Shown in pieces: positions 6,845 through 19,413 of a stretch of DNA of 45,733 nt. A program made the position numbers and the translations under genes. Below the pieces are notes generated by a model. That model was not told the DNA's origin, did not search any database, and saw only the letters and a program-made list of their open reading frames with translations. How positions within the stretch are numbered: position 1 is the stretch's first letter; every line of letters starts with the position of its first letter. Source of the DNA: an uncultured Gammaproteobacteria bacterium (GTDB lineage Bacteria; Pseudomonadota; Gammaproteobacteria; Poriferisulfidales; GCA-002705445); NCBI GenBank assembly GCA_913065025.1, contig CAJYAP010000006.1:1-45733 (forward strand). The letters are read 5' to 3'.

Positions 6845-9800
6845 TTATGCAGCTACACTATCTTTATTAAATATCTCTTCAATTTTAATAGCTTTAGGTT
6901 TTACTATTAAAAATTTTTCAATATAATCATCAAAATTTTCTAGTATATTTCTTGCCCATTCGCTATTTGTTTTGTCTAAGAAATCCATAATTGAATTCTT
7001 CAAAAAAGTTTCTTGATAAGGGTTTTTGTTTCTATTAATTTTTAGCGTTTCAACTAACTCAGGATTATATCTATCTTTAAATGTTCCATCTTCGTCTAAA
7101 ACTATTGCGAATCCTCCAGACATACCTGCTCCAAAGTTAACTCCAGTTTTACCAAGAACTATAACAATCCCATTCGTCATGTATTCGCACCCATGATCCC
7201 CAACACCTTCAACAATAGCTGTGGCTCCAGAATTTCGAACAGCGAATCTTTCTCCAGCAATACCCGCAGCATAAAGTTTTCCACCGGTAGCTCCATACAT
7301 ACATGTATTACCAATAATAACTGATTCATTAGATTTATAACTAACATCTTTTGGAGGATATATAACTATTTCTCCAGCAGCCATACCTTTACCTACGTAA
7401 TCATTTGCATCGCCTTCTAAAGTTAGGTTTAATCCTCCTGCATTCCATACCCCAAAACTTTGACCAGCTGTCCCCTTGAAAGCAATATTTATAGGGTTTT
7501 CAGCCATACGATAATTCCCATGTATTTTTGCTATGGAACCTGAGATACTTGCTCCAACAGATCTGTCAGTATTTTTTATATTATAGCTAAAACTACCGCC
7601 TAATTTTTTTTGGATCACATCTTTTGTATCTTTATCAATTTTTCTAGATAGGTCAGCTTTATCCCAAGGTGTATTATTTTCAACTTCACATATATGAGAA
7701 ATATCTTTATCAACATTAGCATCTGAAATAATTGGATCTACAATTAAATTTTTTAATTTACCATTTTCAAATTTTTTAACTTCGAGATTACTAGTCTGCC
7801 CAATAATATCAGATAATTTCTTGTACCCTAAACTTGCTAAAATTCCTCGAGTTTCTTCTGCAATAAATTTAAAATAATTCATAACCATTTCGTCTTTGCC
7901 TATAAAATGATATTTTCTTAGTACTTGGTTTTGTGTTGCAACCCCAGTTGCACAATTATTTAAGTGACAAATTCTTAAATATTTGCAACCCATTGCTATC
8001 ATTGGGCCAGTACCAAAACCAAAACTTTCTGCACCAAGGATGGCTGCTTTAACTACATCTACCCCAGTCTTTAAACCACCATCTGCTTGCAACCTTACAT
8101 TCTTTCTTAGATTATTAGCTCTTAATGTTTGATGTGTTTCTGATAATCCCATTTCCCAAGGTCCCCCAGCATATTTTATGCTTGATAAAGGACTTGCTGC
8201 AGTACCGCCGTCATATCCAGATATTGTTATGAAATCTGCGTAAGCCTTGGCAACTCCAGCCGCTATTGTTCCAACTCCAGCCTCAGCTACTAATTTAACT
8301 GATACAAACGCAGTAGGGTTTACTTGTTTCAAATCAAAAATTAGTTGCGCTAAATCTTCTATAGAATAAATATCATGATGAGGTGGCGGTGATATTAATG
8401 TTATTCCAGGATTAGCATATCTTAAAGTTGCTATTAGTTTGTCAACTTTATCACCAGGAAGCTGTCCACCTTCTCCAGGCTTTGCTCCTTGAGCAATTTT
8501 AATTTGAATAACTTCTGCATTCACTAAATAGTGTGGAGTCACACCAAACCTGCCTGAGGCAACCTGCTTAATTTTTGAATTTTTATCAGTGTTAAACCTT
8601 TTTTGATCTTCACCACCTTCACCAGAATTTGATCTTCCACCCATTTTGTTCATAGCTTGAGCTAAAGTTTCATGAGCATCAGGTGATAACGCGCCTAATG
8701 ACATTCCAGCAGAATCAAATCTTAAGAGAATATTTTCTATAGGCTCAACATCTTGCAAGGGTATAGGTTTTCTAGAGCTTTTAAAATCCAACATATCTCT
8801 TAAAACCATTTTTTCTCTAGAGTGAACTATATCGCTATATTTTCTATAATCTTCATATTTGCCGCTTTTTACAGCATCTTGTAAAGTCTTAACAACATCT
8901 GGGTTATAAGCATGGAACTCTTCTCCATGAACATATTTTAATAAGCCACCTTGTTTAATATTTTTTCTTTGGCTCCAAGTATTTTTTGCTAACTGCATTT
9001 GATCACTCTCTAGGTCACGAAATGTTGTCCCAGAAAGTCTATTTGTTGTATCGCAGAAGCATAAGTCCACGATTTCTTGATTTAATCCAACGCATTCAAA
9101 CAACTGAGATCCTCTATAACTAGCAATAGTTGAAATCCCCATCTTAGAGAGTATTTTATAAAGACCTTTATTTATTCCTTGTCTATAATTTCTAGTTGCT
9201 TGGAAAAATTCTGCGTTATCATCTGATTTTTCGATTATCATACTATTTAAGGATTGATAAGCTAGATAAGGATAAATAGCTGTCGCTCCATAGCCAATTA
9301 ATGCAGCGCAGTGATGAGAATCTCTAGCTGTAGCAGTTTCCACTATGATATTTGCTTTTGTTCTTAAGCCACTTTTAATTAATGCATGATGAACTGCGCC
9401 AGTTCCTAGTAAAGCGTGAATAGGAAGTTTTCCTTTCTTAATTTCTTTATCACTTAAAATTATAAATACTTTATTGCTCTTCACAGCTTCGATTGCTTTA
9501 CGAGTCAGGTTGCTAATAGCATCCTCAAGTTTTATATCAGCATCATAGTTTAGATCTAGTACTTTATAAGTAAATTTTTTGTTCTTAAGTTCTTGAAGTT
9601 GTCTAAACTTCCTGTAAGACAAAATTGGAGATTCTATTGTTAATCTATGAGCGTGCTTTGAGCCTTCTTCAAATATATTTAAATCTGGACCAAGGTAGGT
9701 TTCTAATGACATCACATTGCTTTCTCTGATTGGATCAATAGGAGGGTTGGTTACTTGAGCAAACTGCTGTCTAAAATAATCGTACAAAGATCTTATCTCG

Positions 9801-11332
9801 TTTGATAGAACAGGGAATGGCGTATCGTCTCCCATAGAACCTATTGCTTCTTGGCTTAGATTTGAAAGAGGTTTGAGAATTTGATCTTTTTCTTCATAAG
9901 AAACATTAAACATTTTTTCATATTGTTTAACTCTAGTTTCATTAAAAAATTCTAGTTCTGGAAATTTATCTGGGATTATTTTGCGCATGGATTCAGCACC
10001 AGTATCCATCCATTCCTTATAAGGGCATCTTTTTTTAAGCATATTATCGATATCATGAGAGTATAAAACGTTGCCTTCTTGTGTATCCACGGCAATAATT
10101 TGGCCTGGACCTAGTTTACCTTTTTCAATAACATCCTTATCATCATATTCGTAAACTCCTATCTCAGAAGCTACTGTAATATGTCTATCTTTAGTAATTA
10201 TATATCGTGCTGGTCTTAAACCATTCCTATCAGTCACACATGCTGCATATCTCCCATCTGTTAAAACTATACCAGCTGGTCCATCCCAAGACTCCATATG
10301 TTTAGCGTTATATTCATAGAATGCTCTTAAATCAGAATCAGTGTCTGGTATACTTTTCCATGCTGGAGGAATAAGTAGTTTAATAGCTTTAAATAAGTTT
10401 ATTCCGCCAACAACTAAAACTTCTAGCATATTGTCTAGGCTTTTTGAATCTGAACCATTCATTGAAACTAGTGGTTTTAATTTTGCAAGCTCAGGAATTT
10501 TAGATGTTTTGAATATACTTGATCTAGCTTGAGACCAATTTCTATTTGCTCTTATAGTATTTATTTCCCCATTATGTGCTAGCATCCGAAATGGTTGAGC
10601 TAGGCTCCATTGTGGCGTTGTATTTGTAGAAAATCTTTGGTGAAAAACACATAGTGAAGTTTCAAGTTTTTTGTTAGATAAATCTAAATAAAACATTGCG
10701 AGATGTTTTGGCATTATCATACCCTTATACAAAATTACTTTTGAAGATAGGCTGGTAATGTAAAATACGTCGTCTTCTGTTTTAGAAATTAATATTTCTA
10801 TTTTTCTTCTAATGATAAGAAGTTTGGACTCAACGTCACTATCGCTTACTTTTTCTGTTGGATTTATAAAAGCTTGGGTAATATAAGGAAGTGTTTTTAG
10901 TGCGTCCTCTCCACAAATATTTTTGTTTGTTGGCACTTCTCTCCATCCAGCTAAAATAAAGTCATGCTCTCTTACAACATCTTCAACAATTTTCATTGAA
11001 GATTTTCTTTTCTTTTCGTCGGTATTTAAAAAGAACATACCAATAGCAAAATTCTTTGCCACATTAATATCTTGTTCATTTGCTATTGACCTAAAATAAA
11101 ATTCTGGGATTTTAAATAAAATTCCACACCCGTCACCAGAAGTTCCATCAGCCCCAACAGCTCCCCTGTGAGCTAGTCTTTCAAGGGCGGTAATAGCAGT
11201 ATCAATCAGCCAATGACTAGGTTTATCATCAATATTCGTAATTAGACCAAAACCACAGCTGTCTTTTTCAAACTTCTTATCGTATAAACCGGTAATTTCT
11301 TTATTTTTGTCTTTCATACTCAATAAGTCCAA
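6845..11332 (-). CDS. gltB: Glutamate synthase large subunit; start may be ATG at 11317 instead of TTG at 11332
   Basis: N-terminal CGFGLITNID glutaminase Cys, central FMN domain SGYDGGTAASPLSS, C-terminal GXGXG repeat region. Confidence 0.97.
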   Translation of the reverse strand: MDLLSMKDKNKEITGLYDKKFEKDSCGFGLITNIDDKPSHWLIDTAITALERLAHRGAVGADGTSGDGCGILFKIPEFYFRSIANEQDINVAKNFAIGMFFLNTDEKKRKSSMKIVEDVVREHDFILAGWREVPTNKNICGEDALKTLPYITQAFINPTEKVSDSDVESKLLIIRRKIEILISKTEDDVFYITSLSSKVILYKGMIMPKHLAMFYLDLSNKKLETSLCVFHQRFSTNTTPQWSLAQPFRMLAHNGEINTIRANRNWSQARSSIFKTSKIPELAKLKPLVSMNGSDSKSLDNMLEVLVVGGINLFKAIKLLIPPAWKSIPDTDSDLRAFYEYNAKHMESWDGPAGIVLTDGRYAACVTDRNGLRPARYIITKDRHITVASEIGVYEYDDKDVIEKGKLGPGQIIAVDTQEGNVLYSHDIDNMLKKRCPYKEWMDTGAESMRKIIPDKFPELEFFNETRVKQYEKMFNVSYEEKDQILKPLSNLSQEAIGSMGDDTPFPVLSNEIRSLYDYFRQQFAQVTNPPIDPIRESNVMSLETYLGPDLNIFEEGSKHAHRLTIESPILSYRKFRQLQELKNKKFTYKVLDLNYDADIKLEDAISNLTRKAIEAVKSNKVFIILSDKEIKKGKLPIHALLGTGAVHHALIKSGLRTKANIIVETATARDSHHCAALIGYGATAIYPYLAYQSLNSMIIEKSDDNAEFFQATRNYRQGINKGLYKILSKMGISTIASYRGSQLFECVGLNQEIVDLCFCDTTNRLSGTTFRDLESDQMQLAKNTWSQRKNIKQGGLLKYVHGEEFHAYNPDVVKTLQDAVKSGKYEDYRKYSDIVHSREKMVLRDMLDFKSSRKPIPLQDVEPIENILLRFDSAGMSLGALSPDAHETLAQAMNKMGGRSNSGEGGEDQKRFNTDKNSKIKQVASGRFGVTPHYLVNAEVIQIKIAQGAKPGEGGQLPGDKVDKLIATLRYANPGITLISPPPHHDIYSIEDLAQLIFDLKQVNPTAFVSVKLVAEAGVGTIAAGVAKAYADFITISGYDGGTAASPLSSIKYAGGPWEMGLSETHQTLRANNLRKNVRLQADGGLKTGVDVVKAAILGAESFGFGTGPMIAMGCKYLRICHLNNCATGVATQNQVLRKYHFIGKDEMVMNYFKFIAEETRGILASLGYKKLSDIIGQTSNLEVKKFENGKLKNLIVDPIISDANVDKDISHICEVENNTPWDKADLSRKIDKDTKDVIQKKLGGSFSYNIKNTDRSVGASISGSIAKIHGNYRMAENPINIAFKGTAGQSFGVWNAGGLNLTLEGDANDYVGKGMAAGEIVIYPPKDVSYKSNESVIIGNTCMYGATGGKLYAAGIAGERFAVRNSGATAIVEGVGDHGCEYMTNGIVIVLGKTGVNFGAGMSGGFAIVLDEDGTFKDRYNPELVETLKINRNKNPYQETFLKNSIMDFLDKTNSEWARNILENFDDYIEKFLIVKPKAIKIEEIFNKDSVAA

Positions 11333-11344
11333 TAATATTAACTT

Positions 11345-11376
11345 CTAGAGTTTGATGATATCTCACCAAACTCTAG
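11345..11376 (-). promoter_or_regulatory. Expression-platform hairpin 2 in gltB leader
   Basis: Perfect CTAGAGTTTG/CAAACTCTAG 10-bp stem, extended through a G-U and 3 bp to a GATA loop; overlaps hairpin 1. Confidence 0.75.
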
Positions 11377-11390
11377 ATATAAGTTTGGTG
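11364..11390 (-). promoter_or_regulatory. Expression-platform hairpin 1 in gltB leader, alternative to hairpin 2
   Basis: CACCAAACT...AGTTTGGTG 9-bp stem immediately 3' of aptamer P1. Confidence 0.7.
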
Positions 11391-11442
11391 CGTTCCTTCA
11401 GCTTTTAGCTTACTTCCGTCCTCAGTTCAAGGATGAACGTAT
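11388..11442 (-). promoter_or_regulatory. glnA-type glutamine riboswitch aptamer upstream of gltB
   Basis: Minus strand ACGTTCATCC...GGACGGAAGTAAGC...GAAGGAACGCACC carries the conserved glnA/Downstream-peptide RNA core. Confidence 0.85.
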
Positions 11443-11448
11443 GATTAC

Positions 11449-11477
11449 ATTATAGGACTAGGAATCTATTCATTCAA
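11449..11477 (-). promoter_or_regulatory. Sigma70 promoter for gltB
   Basis: Minus strand TTGAAT (11477-11472), 17-nt spacer, TATAAT (11454-11449); same architecture before gltD. Confidence 0.8.
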
Positions 11478-11518
11478 TAAATATCGAATATTTATGCATT
11501 GGAAATAACTTATATTGC

Positions 11519-12658
11519 TTAAAATAGCTTTTTATACTCTTGTTGAGCAAATCTATCAGTCATTCCTGCAATATAGTCACAAATTACTCTTTCTTTAAAA
11601 CCAGAATTAATTTTATCTAAATTATATTGATAGAAGTCATTTGAAAGTAATTTAATATCACTAGTATAGGCAGCAAAAAGATTTTTGATAATAAGATCGG
11701 CTTGGTTAGTCATCTTCACAACGTCAGGATGTTGATATAGATTTGCATAAAGAAATCTTTTTAATTCCATACTAAGTTTTTTTATATCATCAGAAAAACT
11801 AACGATCAGAGCATTGAAATTTTTTACGTCACTAACGCATGAGATAGATTCATTTTTAATATTTTTTTTTGTATTATTTATTAAATCTGTTACCAATAAA
11901 TTTATGATTAGTCTAACTGTTTCATTTACAATTTTTGATCCAGATAGTTTTGGGTATTTTTTTAGAATTATTTTCATTTGATCAGAAAAAATAGATAGAT
12001 TTTCTAACTGTTCGATAGAGATTTTTTTAGCTCTTATTCCGTCTTGGATATCATGGTTATTATATGCTATTTCATCGCAGACATTTGTTAACTGCGCCTC
12101 AAGAGAAGATTGTTTTTTATTAATAAATCTTTCTGCAACTGCCCCTAATTTTTTTGCACGAGCTATGCTGCATTTTTTTAGCAAACCCTCTCTGGTTTCA
12201 AAACATAAATTAAGGCCAGAGAAACTAGCATATCTATTTTCTAATTTATCAATAATCCTCAAAGATTGTATATTATGTTCAAAACCTCCAAAGTCTTTCA
12301 TACATAAATTAAGTACATCTTGTCCAGCATGACCAAATGGGGTGTGTCCTAAATCATGCGCTAGCGATATTGCCTCTGTTAAATCTTCATTAAGCTTTAA
12401 GGCTCTAGCAGATGCCCTAGCAATTTGAGCAACTTCTATAGTGTGAGTCAATCTAGTTCTATACATATCTCCTTCATGGTTAACGAATACTTGAGTTTTG
12501 TATTCTAACCTTCTGAAAGCAGTTGAATGTATGATTCTTTCTCTATCTCTTTGAAACTCTGTTCGCAGCCTAGCTGGTTCTTCATGGAATAATCTGCCTA
12601 AGGTTTGAGAGGATTTGAGTGCATAGGGCGCAAGGTTTTGTTCAAAGTCATTTGACAT
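11519..12658 (-). CDS. dgt: Deoxyguanosinetriphosphate triphosphohydrolase-like protein (HD domain)
   Basis: RRLEYKTQVFVNHEGDMYRTRLTHTIEVAQIAR, LAHDLGHTPFGHAG, NNHDIQDGIRA. Confidence 0.93.
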   Translation of the reverse strand: MSNDFEQNLAPYALKSSQTLGRLFHEEPARLRTEFQRDRERIIHSTAFRRLEYKTQVFVNHEGDMYRTRLTHTIEVAQIARASARALKLNEDLTEAISLAHDLGHTPFGHAGQDVLNLCMKDFGGFEHNIQSLRIIDKLENRYASFSGLNLCFETREGLLKKCSIARAKKLGAVAERFINKKQSSLEAQLTNVCDEIAYNNHDIQDGIRAKKISIEQLENLSIFSDQMKIILKKYPKLSGSKIVNETVRLIINLLVTDLINNTKKNIKNESISCVSDVKNFNALIVSFSDDIKKLSMELKRFLYANLYQHPDVVKMTNQADLIIKNLFAAYTSDIKLLSNDFYQYNLDKINSGFKERVICDYIAGMTDRFAQQEYKKLF

Positions 12659-13727
12659 GATCTTTCAGTGCTTTAATTACAATATTTTTAGTAATTTTAT
12701 TTGTTATATATGCTTGGCCTATATTTTTAGGTAGCACATACACCATTTCATTATTTTTAACTTTTTTATCTAGTAACATTATTTTGAATAATTTTTCTAT
12801 ATTTATATTTTTCGGAAGTTTTGTTGGAAGGTTGAAATCTTTTAGCAAACTTTTTATTTTATTATAATCAGCAATATTCATTGTGTTATTTTGAATAGCA
12901 ACAGACGCAGCAATAAGAAAACCGCAGGCTATAGCTTCTCCATGAAGCCATTTCCCGTAACCTAGGTAGTTTTCAATAGCATGTCCAAATGTATGCCCTA
13001 GATTTAATAAGGCTCTAATATTTTTTTCTTTTTCATCAAGAGAAACTATATTTGCTTTAATTTCACATGATTTCTTAACAATTTTAATTATGCTTTCTGA
13101 GTCCTGTTTATTTATTTTTTCTTTATTCTTGGAGATCCAATCAAAGAAAACTTTATCTTTTATTATGCCGTACTTAATAACTTCTGCCATTCCGGCATTA
13201 AATTGTCTTTTTGGTAATGACTTTAGAATTTCAGTATCAATAATAACAGCAATAGGCTGATGAAAAGCTCCAATCATATTTTTCCCAAGCGGATGATTAA
13301 TACCTGTTTTGCCACCTACGGACGAATCAACCATAGATAATAATGTTGTCGGTATTTGAATAAAATTTATTCCTCTTTGATATGTAGCAGCAGCATACCC
13401 AGTTATGTCACCAATCACACCTCCGCCAAAAGCAACTAAGCAGCTATCTCTAGAATATTTATTTTTTAATAAATAATTGTATATCTTATTAGTACTCTCT
13501 TGATTTTTATATTTTTCACCATCACTTAGTATAATTTTATTTTTCTTAACAAGTGAATTTTTTATTTTTGTTAAATGAAGAGATTTAATTTTTCTATTAG
13601 TAACTATGGCAAAATTTCTTTCATTAATGCCACTTAATAAACTTTTATTAGATAAAATATTTTTTCCAATAAAAATTGGGTATGATCTATTATTTAATTT
13701 AACAATTATTTTTTTCATATTTTTCAT
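12648..13727 (-). CDS. aroB: 3-dehydroquinate synthase
   Basis: DGEKYKN, FGGGVIGDITGYAAATYQRGINFIQIPTTLLSMVDSSVGGKTGIN, LNLGHTFGHAIE. Confidence 0.96.
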   Translation of the reverse strand: MKNMKKIIVKLNNRSYPIFIGKNILSNKSLLSGINERNFAIVTNRKIKSLHLTKIKNSLVKKNKIILSDGEKYKNQESTNKIYNYLLKNKYSRDSCLVAFGGGVIGDITGYAAATYQRGINFIQIPTTLLSMVDSSVGGKTGINHPLGKNMIGAFHQPIAVIIDTEILKSLPKRQFNAGMAEVIKYGIIKDKVFFDWISKNKEKINKQDSESIIKIVKKSCEIKANIVSLDEKEKNIRALLNLGHTFGHAIENYLGYGKWLHGEAIACGFLIAASVAIQNNTMNIADYNKIKSLLKDFNLPTKLPKNINIEKLFKIMLLDKKVKNNEMVYVLPKNIGQAYITNKITKNIVIKALKDHVK

Positions 13728-14235
13728 AATTCTTAATAATAATTTTTGATAATTTTACTGTATCATAATTATCAGTGCTTAATTTGATATTAGAAGTATT
13801 TTTGTAATATTTTTCTCGTTCTTTAAGAATTTCTATAATTTTAATTTCAGCGTCGCCATTTTTTATCAAGGGTCTATTTTTATCTTGTTCTGTTCTATAA
13901 ACTAATTCTTTTATGCTGGCAGTGAGATACACAATAAATCCCATATTTTTTATAATTAATCTGTTCTCCTCAGAAAGTATTATTCCGCCTCCAGTTCCTA
14001 CAATCGTATTCTCAATATTTGAAATACTCTCAAGAATTTTATTTTCTCTTTTTCTAAAGCCGGTCTCACCCTCATGCTCGAATATTGTTGAGATATCCAC
14101 ACCAGTTTTATCTTCAATTAAATGGTCAGTGTCAATGAAATCAAATTTCATCATTCTGGATAGTTTTTTCCCTATGGAAGTCTTTCCTGAACCCATTGGG
14201 CCAATTAGAATTATATTGTTTTTTAGTTTAGGCAA
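13699..14235 (-). CDS. aroK: Shikimate kinase
   Basis: Walker A GPMGSGKTSIGKKLS, DTDHLIE, GTGGGIIL. Confidence 0.94.
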   Translation of the reverse strand: MPKLKNNIILIGPMGSGKTSIGKKLSRMMKFDFIDTDHLIEDKTGVDISTIFEHEGETGFRKRENKILESISNIENTIVGTGGGIILSEENRLIIKNMGFIVYLTASIKELVYRTEQDKNRPLIKNGDAEIKIIEILKEREKYYKNTSNIKLSTDNYDTVKLSKIIIKNYEKYEKNNC

Positions 14236-14284
14236 GATAAATTTTGTTTTTATAGTATTATATAGATATTAACAAGAATTTTTA

Positions 14285-16756
14285 TTGCCACCAACAAGTA
14301 TGAGTATATTTTTTAATAAAGCTTTGAAACCACTTTACTATTTTATCGGCTTGATAATTATTTCACTTTTGGTTTTATATATAACTTTAGCTAGTAGCTT
14401 GCCTTCTGTAGAAGAAATACAGGATATGAAAATGCAAGTCCCAATGAGGGTTTACACCCAAGACAAAAAATTAATAGCTGTTTTTGGAGAAAAAAAGAGA
14501 ATTCCAGCAACATTTGAAGAAATACCTGATAGCTTGAAAAATGCTTTCATTGCCGCAGAAGATAATAGATTTTATAAACATAATGGAGTTGATTATCTTG
14601 GTTTATTAAGAGCTCTAAAAAGTTTTATTTCTACAGGTAAAGTTACTCAAGGAGGAAGCACAATAACTATGCAGGTGGCAAGAAATTTTTATCTTACTAG
14701 AGAGAAAAAAATTATTCGAAAGTTAAGAGAAATTTTGCTCGCTTATAAAATGGAAAGAAACTTAAGCAAGGAAAGGATTTTCGAATTATATATGAACAAA
14801 ATATATTTAGGTCATCGAGCATATGGAGTAGCAGCGGCGGCACAAGTATATTATGGGAAAAGATTATCTGAATTAAATCTACCCCAAATGGCCATGATTG
14901 CTGGTTTGCCAAAAGCACCATCAAGATATAATCCAATTGCTAATAAAAAAAGAGCGCTACAAAGAAGAGATTATGTCTTAAGAAGGATGTCAGAAAACAG
15001 CTTCATTTCTCAAAACGAGTATGTTGATGCGTACCTTGAGCCTGTGAGCGCTAGACTTAACACTGCAAATATAGAACTAAAAGCTCCGTATGTTTCTGAG
15101 ATGGCAAGAGTTGAAATGGAAGACAGGTTTGGCAAAAATGCCTACACAGAGGGCTATGATGTTTTTACAACTATTAATAGTAAGTTACAAGAAGCTGCGC
15201 AAAAATCTTTAAAAAATAATATAGAAAAATATGATATTCGTCATGGTTACCGAGGCGCGGAAGCAAAGATCGGCTACAGTAAATTACTAAATTCTGATTT
15301 TGAATATGATCTTGAGCTTTCTATGATCAATATAGATAAATATTTAAAAAGTTTTTACGAAATAAATAAGAATGTTCCAGCAGTCGTATTGAATGTTGAT
15401 TTAAAAAAAATAAAAGTATACACAAAAAATAATCAATTATTGGATATAGCTTTAAATGAAATAATTATAAAAAATCAATATTTTGATGTTAATTATAAAA
15501 AAAGAATTAAAGATTTTAATAAAATTTTAACTATTGGTGACGTAGTAAGAGTTAAAGAAACGAAAGGTAAATGGCGTCTTTCACAAATACCTAACGTAAA
15601 TGGAGCCTTAGTTTCTATTGATTCAAATAGCGGCGCGATATCAGCTTTGTCAGGTGGTTATGATTATAGATTAAGTAAATTTAATAGAGTGACTCAAGCA
15701 AAAAGGCAGCCGGGATCAAGCTTTAAACCCTTTATATATTCTGCAGCTTTGAACAAAGGATATACTCCTGCTTCAATAATAAATGATGCGCCAAAAGTAT
15801 TTAAAGAAAATACGGTAAGCGGCGCTTGGCGACCTAAAAATTACGGTGGGAAATTCTTTGGACCTACAAGATTACGTTATGGGTTAGCTAAATCTAGAAA
15901 TATGATATCCATAAGGCTATTGGATAGTATTGGGATTAAATACACATTAGACTACGTTAAAAATTTTAATATTTCTTCAGAAAAGCTTCCTAAAGACTTA
16001 ACACTGGCCTTAGGAAGTGGAGAAATTACCCCCATAGAATTATCTGAAGCTTATGCATATTTTTCAAATGGAGGACATGGGATTAAACCGTACCTCATCG
16101 AGCAAGTTAGAACTAGAAGTAACGAAATAATTTATGTTGAAAACCCTATTCGAGTTTGTAGTAATCCCTGCGACTACGTAAGCATGGACACCTTGCAATT
16201 TCCTTCTGCAGAATCAGTTGAAGAAATAACAGAGTTAAGAAAAAAAGCCGGGCTTCCAAGATTCGCATCCCAAACTATAGATCCTAGAAACATATATCAA
16301 ATGGTTAGCATGATGAAAGATGTTGTGAAGTACGGTACAGCAAGAAGAGCTAGAGTTTTGAAAAGAACTGATATAGCAGGAAAAACAGGAACAACAAATG
16401 ATCAAAAAGATGCATGGTTCAGCGGTTTTAATAGAGATATTGTCACTATAAGTTTTCTTGGTTTCGATAACCATTCGTCGCTTGGAAAAAATGAGTTCGG
16501 AAGTACAGCCGCTCTTCCAATGTGGGTAGATTATATGAAAGTAGCATTAAAAGGGATGCCTAAATCAAACATGGATGAGCCTGATGGTTTAGTAAGTGCA
16601 AAAATTGATAGCAAAAATGGCTTGTTGGCATCACCAAACTCAAAGAATTCTATCGTAGAAGTTTTTAGAAAAGAAAATATTCCAAAAACTTTCAGTAAAG
16701 ATATTAAGACAAATAATAAAAATGAAAAAGAATTAGAGATAGAAAAAATATTTTAG
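14285..16756 (+). CDS. mrcA: Penicillin-binding protein 1A
   Basis: GT51 AAEDNRFYKHNGVD, QGGSTITMQVARN; transpeptidase RQPGSSFKPFIY, AGKTGTTNDQKDAWFSGF. Confidence 0.95.
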   Translation: MPPTSMSIFFNKALKPLYYFIGLIIISLLVLYITLASSLPSVEEIQDMKMQVPMRVYTQDKKLIAVFGEKKRIPATFEEIPDSLKNAFIAAEDNRFYKHNGVDYLGLLRALKSFISTGKVTQGGSTITMQVARNFYLTREKKIIRKLREILLAYKMERNLSKERIFELYMNKIYLGHRAYGVAAAAQVYYGKRLSELNLPQMAMIAGLPKAPSRYNPIANKKRALQRRDYVLRRMSENSFISQNEYVDAYLEPVSARLNTANIELKAPYVSEMARVEMEDRFGKNAYTEGYDVFTTINSKLQEAAQKSLKNNIEKYDIRHGYRGAEAKIGYSKLLNSDFEYDLELSMINIDKYLKSFYEINKNVPAVVLNVDLKKIKVYTKNNQLLDIALNEIIIKNQYFDVNYKKRIKDFNKILTIGDVVRVKETKGKWRLSQIPNVNGALVSIDSNSGAISALSGGYDYRLSKFNRVTQAKRQPGSSFKPFIYSAALNKGYTPASIINDAPKVFKENTVSGAWRPKNYGGKFFGPTRLRYGLAKSRNMISIRLLDSIGIKYTLDYVKNFNISSEKLPKDLTLALGSGEITPIELSEAYAYFSNGGHGIKPYLIEQVRTRSNEIIYVENPIRVCSNPCDYVSMDTLQFPSAESVEEITELRKKAGLPRFASQTIDPRNIYQMVSMMKDVVKYGTARRARVLKRTDIAGKTGTTNDQKDAWFSGFNRDIVTISFLGFDNHSSLGKNEFGSTAALPMWVDYMKVALKGMPKSNMDEPDGLVSAKIDSKNGLLASPNSKNSIVEVFRKENIPKTFSKDIKTNNKNEKELEIEKIF

Positions 16757-17817: not shown

Positions 17818-19221
<1,404 letters not shown>

Positions 19222-19225
19222 CTAA

Positions 19226-19257
19226 CTAGAGCTTGATGATATCTCACCAAACCTTAG
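19226..19257 (-). promoter_or_regulatory. Expression-platform hairpin 2 in gltD leader
   Basis: CTAAGGTTTG/CAAGCTCTAG stem with wobble and one mismatch; loop GTGAGATATCAT identical to gltB copy. Confidence 0.7.
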
Positions 19258-19271
19258 GTTAAAGTTTGGTG
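19245..19271 (-). promoter_or_regulatory. Expression-platform hairpin 1 in gltD leader
   Basis: CACCAAAC...GTTTGGTG directly 3' of aptamer. Confidence 0.68.
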
Positions 19272-19323
19272 CGTTCCTTCGGCATTTCGCTTACTTCCGT
19301 CCTTAAATTATAAGGATGAACGT
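19268..19323 (-). promoter_or_regulatory. glnA-type glutamine riboswitch aptamer upstream of gltD
   Basis: Minus strand ACGTTCATCC...GGACGGAAGTAAGC...GAAGGAACGCACC; same core as gltB leader. Confidence 0.85.
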
Positions 19324-19342
19324 GTGTCTATATAATACATTG

Positions 19343-19371
19343 ATTATAGGACTAACAGGTAAAGCATTCAA
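19343..19371 (-). promoter_or_regulatory. Sigma70 promoter for gltD
   Basis: Minus strand TTGAAT (19371-19366), 17-nt spacer, TATAAT (19348-19343). Confidence 0.8.
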
Positions 19372-19413
19372 TAGATACGCTAGATATGGGGTTGAATATA
19401 ACTTATATGATAT

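Follow-up and report, generated by a model that had tools for sequence, protein, structure and literature searches.

Glutamate synthase is encoded in an uncultured gammaproteobacterium by two subunit genes, gltB and gltD, that lie apart, each behind a leader of its own. How did separated genes for one enzyme come to be preceded by closely similar leaders, and how might these leaders tie both genes to a single signal? We addressed these questions in the window, by which we mean the whole stretch of DNA analysed (45,733 nucleotides of contig CAJYAP010000006.1), where the two genes were identified by NCBIfam profile matches and the start codon of gltB was set from the alignment of relatives:

6845..11317, minus strand: gltB, glutamate synthase large subunit (NF008730, 2429 bits), ATG at 11317
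17818..19209, minus strand: gltD, glutamate synthase small subunit (TIGR01318, 719.8 bits)

The gltB block, with dgt, aroB and aroK upstream of gltB, is separated from the gltD block, with hemE downstream of gltD, by a penicillin-binding protein gene on the opposite strand, and the distance of 6.5 kb given in the original prediction proved correct. At 66 of 73 other loci, sampled with gltD and containing gltB, the two genes adjoin on one strand. Within the host's order they are apart wherever we looked, in three families: the gap is 6.5-7 kb in the window's family, and in the other two the genes are far separated or on different contigs. The draft genome of the host comprises 982,694 bases (0.98 Mb) and is 83% complete; its nearest named records are the unclassified Gammaproteobacteria SI036_bin62, cluster2_bin.221 and NAT271, together with a single cell filed as uncultured Thiothrix sp. 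(AG-390-O20). Judging from the small genome and the sources of these records, the host probably lives in the open sea.

Glutamine-I aptamers at both subunit genes

Covariance-model searches placed one glutamine-I aptamer (RF01739) in each leader:

19268..19324, minus strand: glutamine-I aptamer of the gltD leader, 57.7 bits
11387..11441, minus strand: glutamine-I aptamer of the gltB leader, 60.7 bits

The gathering score of the model is 35, and both matches span the whole of it (positions 1-53). They are the only above-threshold Rfam matches in the window, with genome-wide E-values of 1.5e-12 (gltD) and 2.2e-13 (gltB), and no third copy was found in the 83% complete draft; the earlier claim that both genes carry the same aptamer is thereby upheld. 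As many as nine species in the genus carry such aptamers directly upstream of gltB and gltD, on the same strand. Over 14 leaders, P1 and P2 were paired in 100% of cells and P3 in 95.2%, and compensatory changes were found in none of the three stems. Judged on sequence, model score, pairing and leader position together identify both as glutamine-I aptamers, and membership of this family would tie both genes to one ligand, glutamine.

A survey of copy number in related genomes, suggested alongside the original prediction, revealed species with one copy (at gltB only), with two and with none. RF01739 was matched in 9 of the 11 genomes of the genus, and both copies are present in seven (the window's and G002, G003, G005, G008, G009 and G011). 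G006 has the gltB copy only, its gltD being complete and the region upstream readable; in G007 the gltB copy is present and the start of gltD lies off the contig. G004, which is 98% complete, contains both genes and neither copy of the riboswitch, and in the incomplete G010 neither gltB nor gltD was seen. The riboswitch was absent from the other families of the host's order, and among 369 genomes drawn from the class, matches outside the genus came only from G050, with five copies, and weakly from G194. Separately, the gltB of G001 (L129, L130), a genome with a listed contamination of 6%, is spread over two reading frames (9866-12832 and 12853-14307), and another contig carries a second, partial gltD.

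The same aptamer is present in G050, likewise a gammaproteobacterium with a small genome, where it stands before other downstream sequences (L135:12155-12277, L135:3856-3961 and L136:4674-4726): one tandem pair precedes glnA, a second tandem pair a 45-aa open reading frame, and a single aptamer a Gcw_chp gene followed by amtB. G194 (L138:4947-5083), also a gammaproteobacterium, has a glutamine-I aptamer (42.3 bits) that contains a long insert. The protein encoded behind it, of 52 aa, resembles DUF4278, the domain of the cyanobacterial GS inactivating factor IF17, at 25.1 bits, just below the cut-off of 25.3.

Probable history of the duplicated leader

Upstream of the aptamers, the two leaders share the following elements:

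19343..19371, minus strand: gltD promoter, TTGAAT-17-TATAAT
11449..11477, minus strand: gltB promoter, TTGAAT-17-TATAAT
19392..19408, minus strand: ATATAAGTTATATTCAA element ahead of the gltD promoter; its counterpart at gltB, 11499-11515, has two mismatches

The match to the promoter consensus alone is not above shuffle expectation; common to both genes, as had been predicted, are the 17-nt spacing and a TAGTCC directly before TATAAT. Pairwise alignment found aptamer and platform to be 85% identical between the copies; GTGAGATATCATCAA is identical in the two leaders, and the GTGAGATATCAT segment reported earlier is indeed shared. Identity drops to 60% over the 90 nt upstream (alignment z 5.6) and to only 47% in the spacer that leads to the start codon. 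The likeness thus reaches the promoter and the platform hairpins and is not confined to the aptamer core, which supports the earlier reading of a duplicated leader.

A ATATAAGTTATATTCAA-like element lies a few bases past the stop codon of the upstream gene at both gltB and gltD, and is kept in most relatives and at the riboswitch-less gltB of G004. Its only exact match in the genome is the gltD site, and a role as a genome-wide regulatory site was rejected (48 matches with up to three mismatches, against 43 for the reversed control). In G003 (L141), the interval from dgt to the gltB promoter contains a short tandem repeat whose units resemble TTTTTAATGA.

Since gltB and gltD are apart throughout the order and the riboswitch is absent from its other families, the split of the gltB-gltD operon appears to be older than the riboswitch. 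In a tree of nine concatenated proteins, G006 branches off first within the genus (bootstrap 57 only), with G004 nested; the order of events that this suggests, weakly supported, is that the riboswitch was gained at gltB, later spread to gltD and was lost in G004. The promoters indicate the direction of copying. The promoter of the riboswitch-less gltB of G004 aligns with those of riboswitch-bearing gltD genes, the window's included (mean z 3.7, best 6.3). By contrast, the regions upstream of gltD in G004 and G006, where this gene lacks the riboswitch, are unlike them (mean z 0.4 and -0.5, respectively). Because the promoter of riboswitch-bearing gltD resembles that of gltB and not the native gltD upstream region, promoter and riboswitch would have been copied together, from gltB to gltD.

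The copies also appear to have exchanged sequence. Those of G003 are 98% identical in aptamer and platform and 61% identical in their promoters. Between G000 and G005, the cores are 92% and 95% identical when compared crosswise and 86% and 86% by orthology, whereas the promoters are 78% and 87% identical by orthology and 56% and 62% crosswise; cores that are homogenised while promoters follow orthology are a sign of gene conversion. A permutation test of within-genome pairing was, overall, only suggestive (66 of 720), and from these alignments gene conversion may be claimed for single cases, not as a rule. Furthermore, the gltB and gltD copies do not fall into two separate groups in the leader tree, a pattern that on its own would also be compatible with repeated origins, that is, with a glutamine aptamer acquired twice independently, once before gltB and once before gltD. 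However, platform and promoter are common to both genes as well, and within G003 the two copies of aptamer and platform resemble each other more closely than copies from different species do. Independent acquisition thus looks already largely refuted, and we regard it as very improbable. We propose instead that the module arose at or reached gltB, that it was duplicated together with its promoter in front of gltD, and that the copies still exchange sequence. The fuller account, in which copying of riboswitch and promoter re-established co-regulation after the split and recurrent gene conversion keeps the copies alike, as concerted evolution in a streamlined genome, is a real possibility that we would hold only tentatively.

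A phage source for the module was rejected: there was no match among annotated phages, and a 16-base search of IMG/VR yielded 19 matches, by estimate about the chance level; three of the 19 hold a tandem glutamine-I aptamer, but with a different leader. In these viral contigs (L197:755-858, L208:4426-4529 and L211:4662-4765), the tandem aptamers precede an open reading frame with a strong Shine-Dalgarno sequence, and the aptamer tail CACC is complementary to the GGTG of that sequence.

Alternative hairpins downstream of the aptamers

Downstream of the aptamers, the following hairpins can be drawn:

19245..19271, minus strand: hairpin A of the gltD leader (CACCAAAC..GUUUGGUG), first base 19271, the putative C60 equivalent
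11364..11390, minus strand: hairpin A of the gltB leader, first base 11390
19226..19257, minus strand: hairpin B of the gltD leader, which excludes hairpin A
11344..11377, minus strand: hairpin B of the gltB leader, 15 pairs
11318..11351, minus strand: hairpin C (proposed), gltB leader, ACUC..GAGU right ahead of the start codon, 5' arm shared with hairpin B

The boundaries of the stretch 19226-19371 coincide exactly with the 3' end of hairpin B and with the 5' end of the -35 box. CACCAAAC follows P1 (CGUUC/GAACG) directly, with no spacer, and pairs with GUUUGGUG to form hairpin A; hairpin B arises from a further pairing, of GUUUGGUGA with UCAUCAAAC and the bases flanking it. Over 14 leaders, 98.7% of cells are paired in hairpin A and 91.8% in hairpin B, where variation occurs through G-U pairs and on one side only. 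Compensatory double changes were found in neither hairpin over these leaders; strand 2 is common to them, which keeps both largely invariant. The two-hairpin platform that had been described is the same at both genes, but its hairpins share a strand and are mutually exclusive, so that they are alternatives and do not co-exist. The candidate hairpin C pairs ACUC with GAGU in the window's gltB leader, ACUCUA with UAGAGU in G006 and AACUUU with AAAGUU in G008. Against shuffled spacers it reached combined p values of 2e-4 (pairs) and 6.5e-4 (energy) over the 14 leaders, which are phylogenetically related; in the gltD leader of the window (z +0.27), as in some orthologues, it is weak. A plus C and B lie close in energy, the difference ranging from -6.5 to +3.0 kcal/mol.

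In the structure described in PMC6698751, the ligand of the glutamine-I aptamer contacts G59:C1, the end pair of P1, and according to PMC11477058 ligand binding inserts G23 into P1 and the linchpin pair G23-C60 forms. Mapped from the G59:C1 pair, the base after P1 (19271 in gltD, 11390 in gltB) would be C60. We propose that each leader combines promoter, aptamer and a switch of alternative hairpins, which would tie the separated gltB and gltD to one signal. With strand 1 (CACCAAAC) and strand 2 (GUUUGGUG) paired as hairpin A, strand 3 (UCAAACUC) would be free to pair with strand 4 before the start codon, so that hairpin C, if it forms in vivo, would mask the start; alternatively, strand 2 would pair with strand 3 as hairpin B and strand 4 would be freed. 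Binding of glutamine would draw the first base of hairpin A into the linchpin pair, disfavour A and favour B, expose the start and raise translation of both subunits. In the window (1-45733), a Shine-Dalgarno-like motif was seen at 1 of 20 gene starts examined, which makes masking of the start site plausible as a means of control; initiation in this genome may rely mainly on unstructured starts.

This coupling was explored with a partition-function model in which the C60-equivalent base was blocked in 14 leaders, with or without a coaxial stacking bonus. Every one of the 14 leaders then gained in hairpin B, and 12 of them in start accessibility. In the leader of the window's gltD, hairpin A fell from 0.65 (0.99 with the stacking bonus) to 0.02, and mean start accessibility rose from 0.53 (0.43 with the bonus) to 0.72. 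Not all leaders behave in this way: several show no switching in the model, and in the gltB leader of the window hairpin B is preferred even without ligand if coaxial stacking is left out of account. A link made by a single base pair would be slight.

The same duplicated riboswitch could also work in the opposite sense, the ligand stabilising P1, hairpin A stacking on it, hairpin C masking the start and GOGAT being repressed. Hairpin A follows P1 without a spacer, and stacking on a stabilised P1 is thus possible; switching off a nitrogen-assimilation gene at high glutamine would, moreover, be a familiar logic, which counts for such an OFF switch. Against it, the bound aptamer as described in PMC11477058 takes the first base of A for its linchpin pair, and the glutamine-I switch reported as tested in PMC6316151, that of gifB, is an ON switch in which glutamine binding activates expression. 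We consider repression unlikely, and control of transcription, with hairpin B as an intrinsic terminator and hairpin A as antiterminator, less likely again. A simple scan marks hairpin B of gltB as terminator-like, but not that of gltD, and 13 of the 14 leaders have at most four T in the eight bases past the conserved arm. A stem with a U tract conserved at both genes was not found, and hairpin B was rejected as a terminator, the T-rich stretch not being conserved across leaders. We give almost no credence to a leader peptide (GTG AGA TAT CAT CAA ...) coupled to gltB and gltD by translational overlap, with the hairpins incidental. In the window, its frame before gltD runs into the start of gltD, the two overlapping in ATGA; in relatives, however, it is broken or shifted (for example GTGAGATAA in gltD of G002), with an extra base in both G003 leaders and early stops in G008 and G007, and a frame not kept in this way refutes the peptide. 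As a whole explanation we lean towards a duplicated pair of glutamine-I riboswitches acting as translational ON switches through alternative hairpins. The model and the analogy with gifB favour the ON direction and the translational level, in which case more glutamine would give more of the enzyme that uses it.

Relation to known systems

Neither the aptamer class nor its ligand is new, and in environmental DNA a link with glutamate synthase genes is already known as well (PMC2864571). glnA RNAs (glutamine-I) were described with glutamate synthase among their associated genes in environmental sequences, and with a range given as cyanobacteria and marine (Weinberg et al. 2010, PMC2864571); a review describes glutamine riboswitches as restricted to cyanobacteria, with links to further nitrogen genes known only from uncultured environmental sequences (PMC6316151). 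The leaders described here share the glutamate synthase association of these environmental RNAs, with host genome, synteny, copy number and history now resolved. Like the glutamine-I riboswitches of Synechocystis gifB and Synechococcus elongatus, they have a full-length P1-P2-P3 with the conserved GGACGGAAGUA and GAAGGAACGC segments and stand in the 5' leader of a nitrogen gene (PMC2864571); they differ in their gammaproteobacterial host, their glutamate synthase target, the alternative hairpins directly on P1 and the two copies on separated subunit genes. The phages Melnitz and Mosig carry the same aptamer, linked to tmRNA or short open reading frames (PMC9004378). A limited literature search found no earlier report of a glutamine riboswitch in a free-living gammaproteobacterial genome, or on gltB and gltD together.

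The proposed switch also resembles trp-type attenuators in the exclusive pairing of four consecutive strands; in those leaders, pairing of 1 with 2 and 3 with 4 excludes pairing of 2 with 3. Here, in contrast, strand 4 would lie at the start codon and not in a terminator, and the sensor would be an aptamer and not a ribosome.

These leaders offer a concrete proposed switch, in which, on our mapping of C60, the first base of a platform hairpin would be the very base recruited by the ligand-bound aptamer. In this genus of gammaproteobacteria with small genomes, host, target genes and evolutionary steps are all legible: species with none, one and two copies, and an operon split that came before them. 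The genus would thus present a natural case of a metabolite sensor that spread from gene to gene and may have restored coordinated expression of the subunits of one enzyme.
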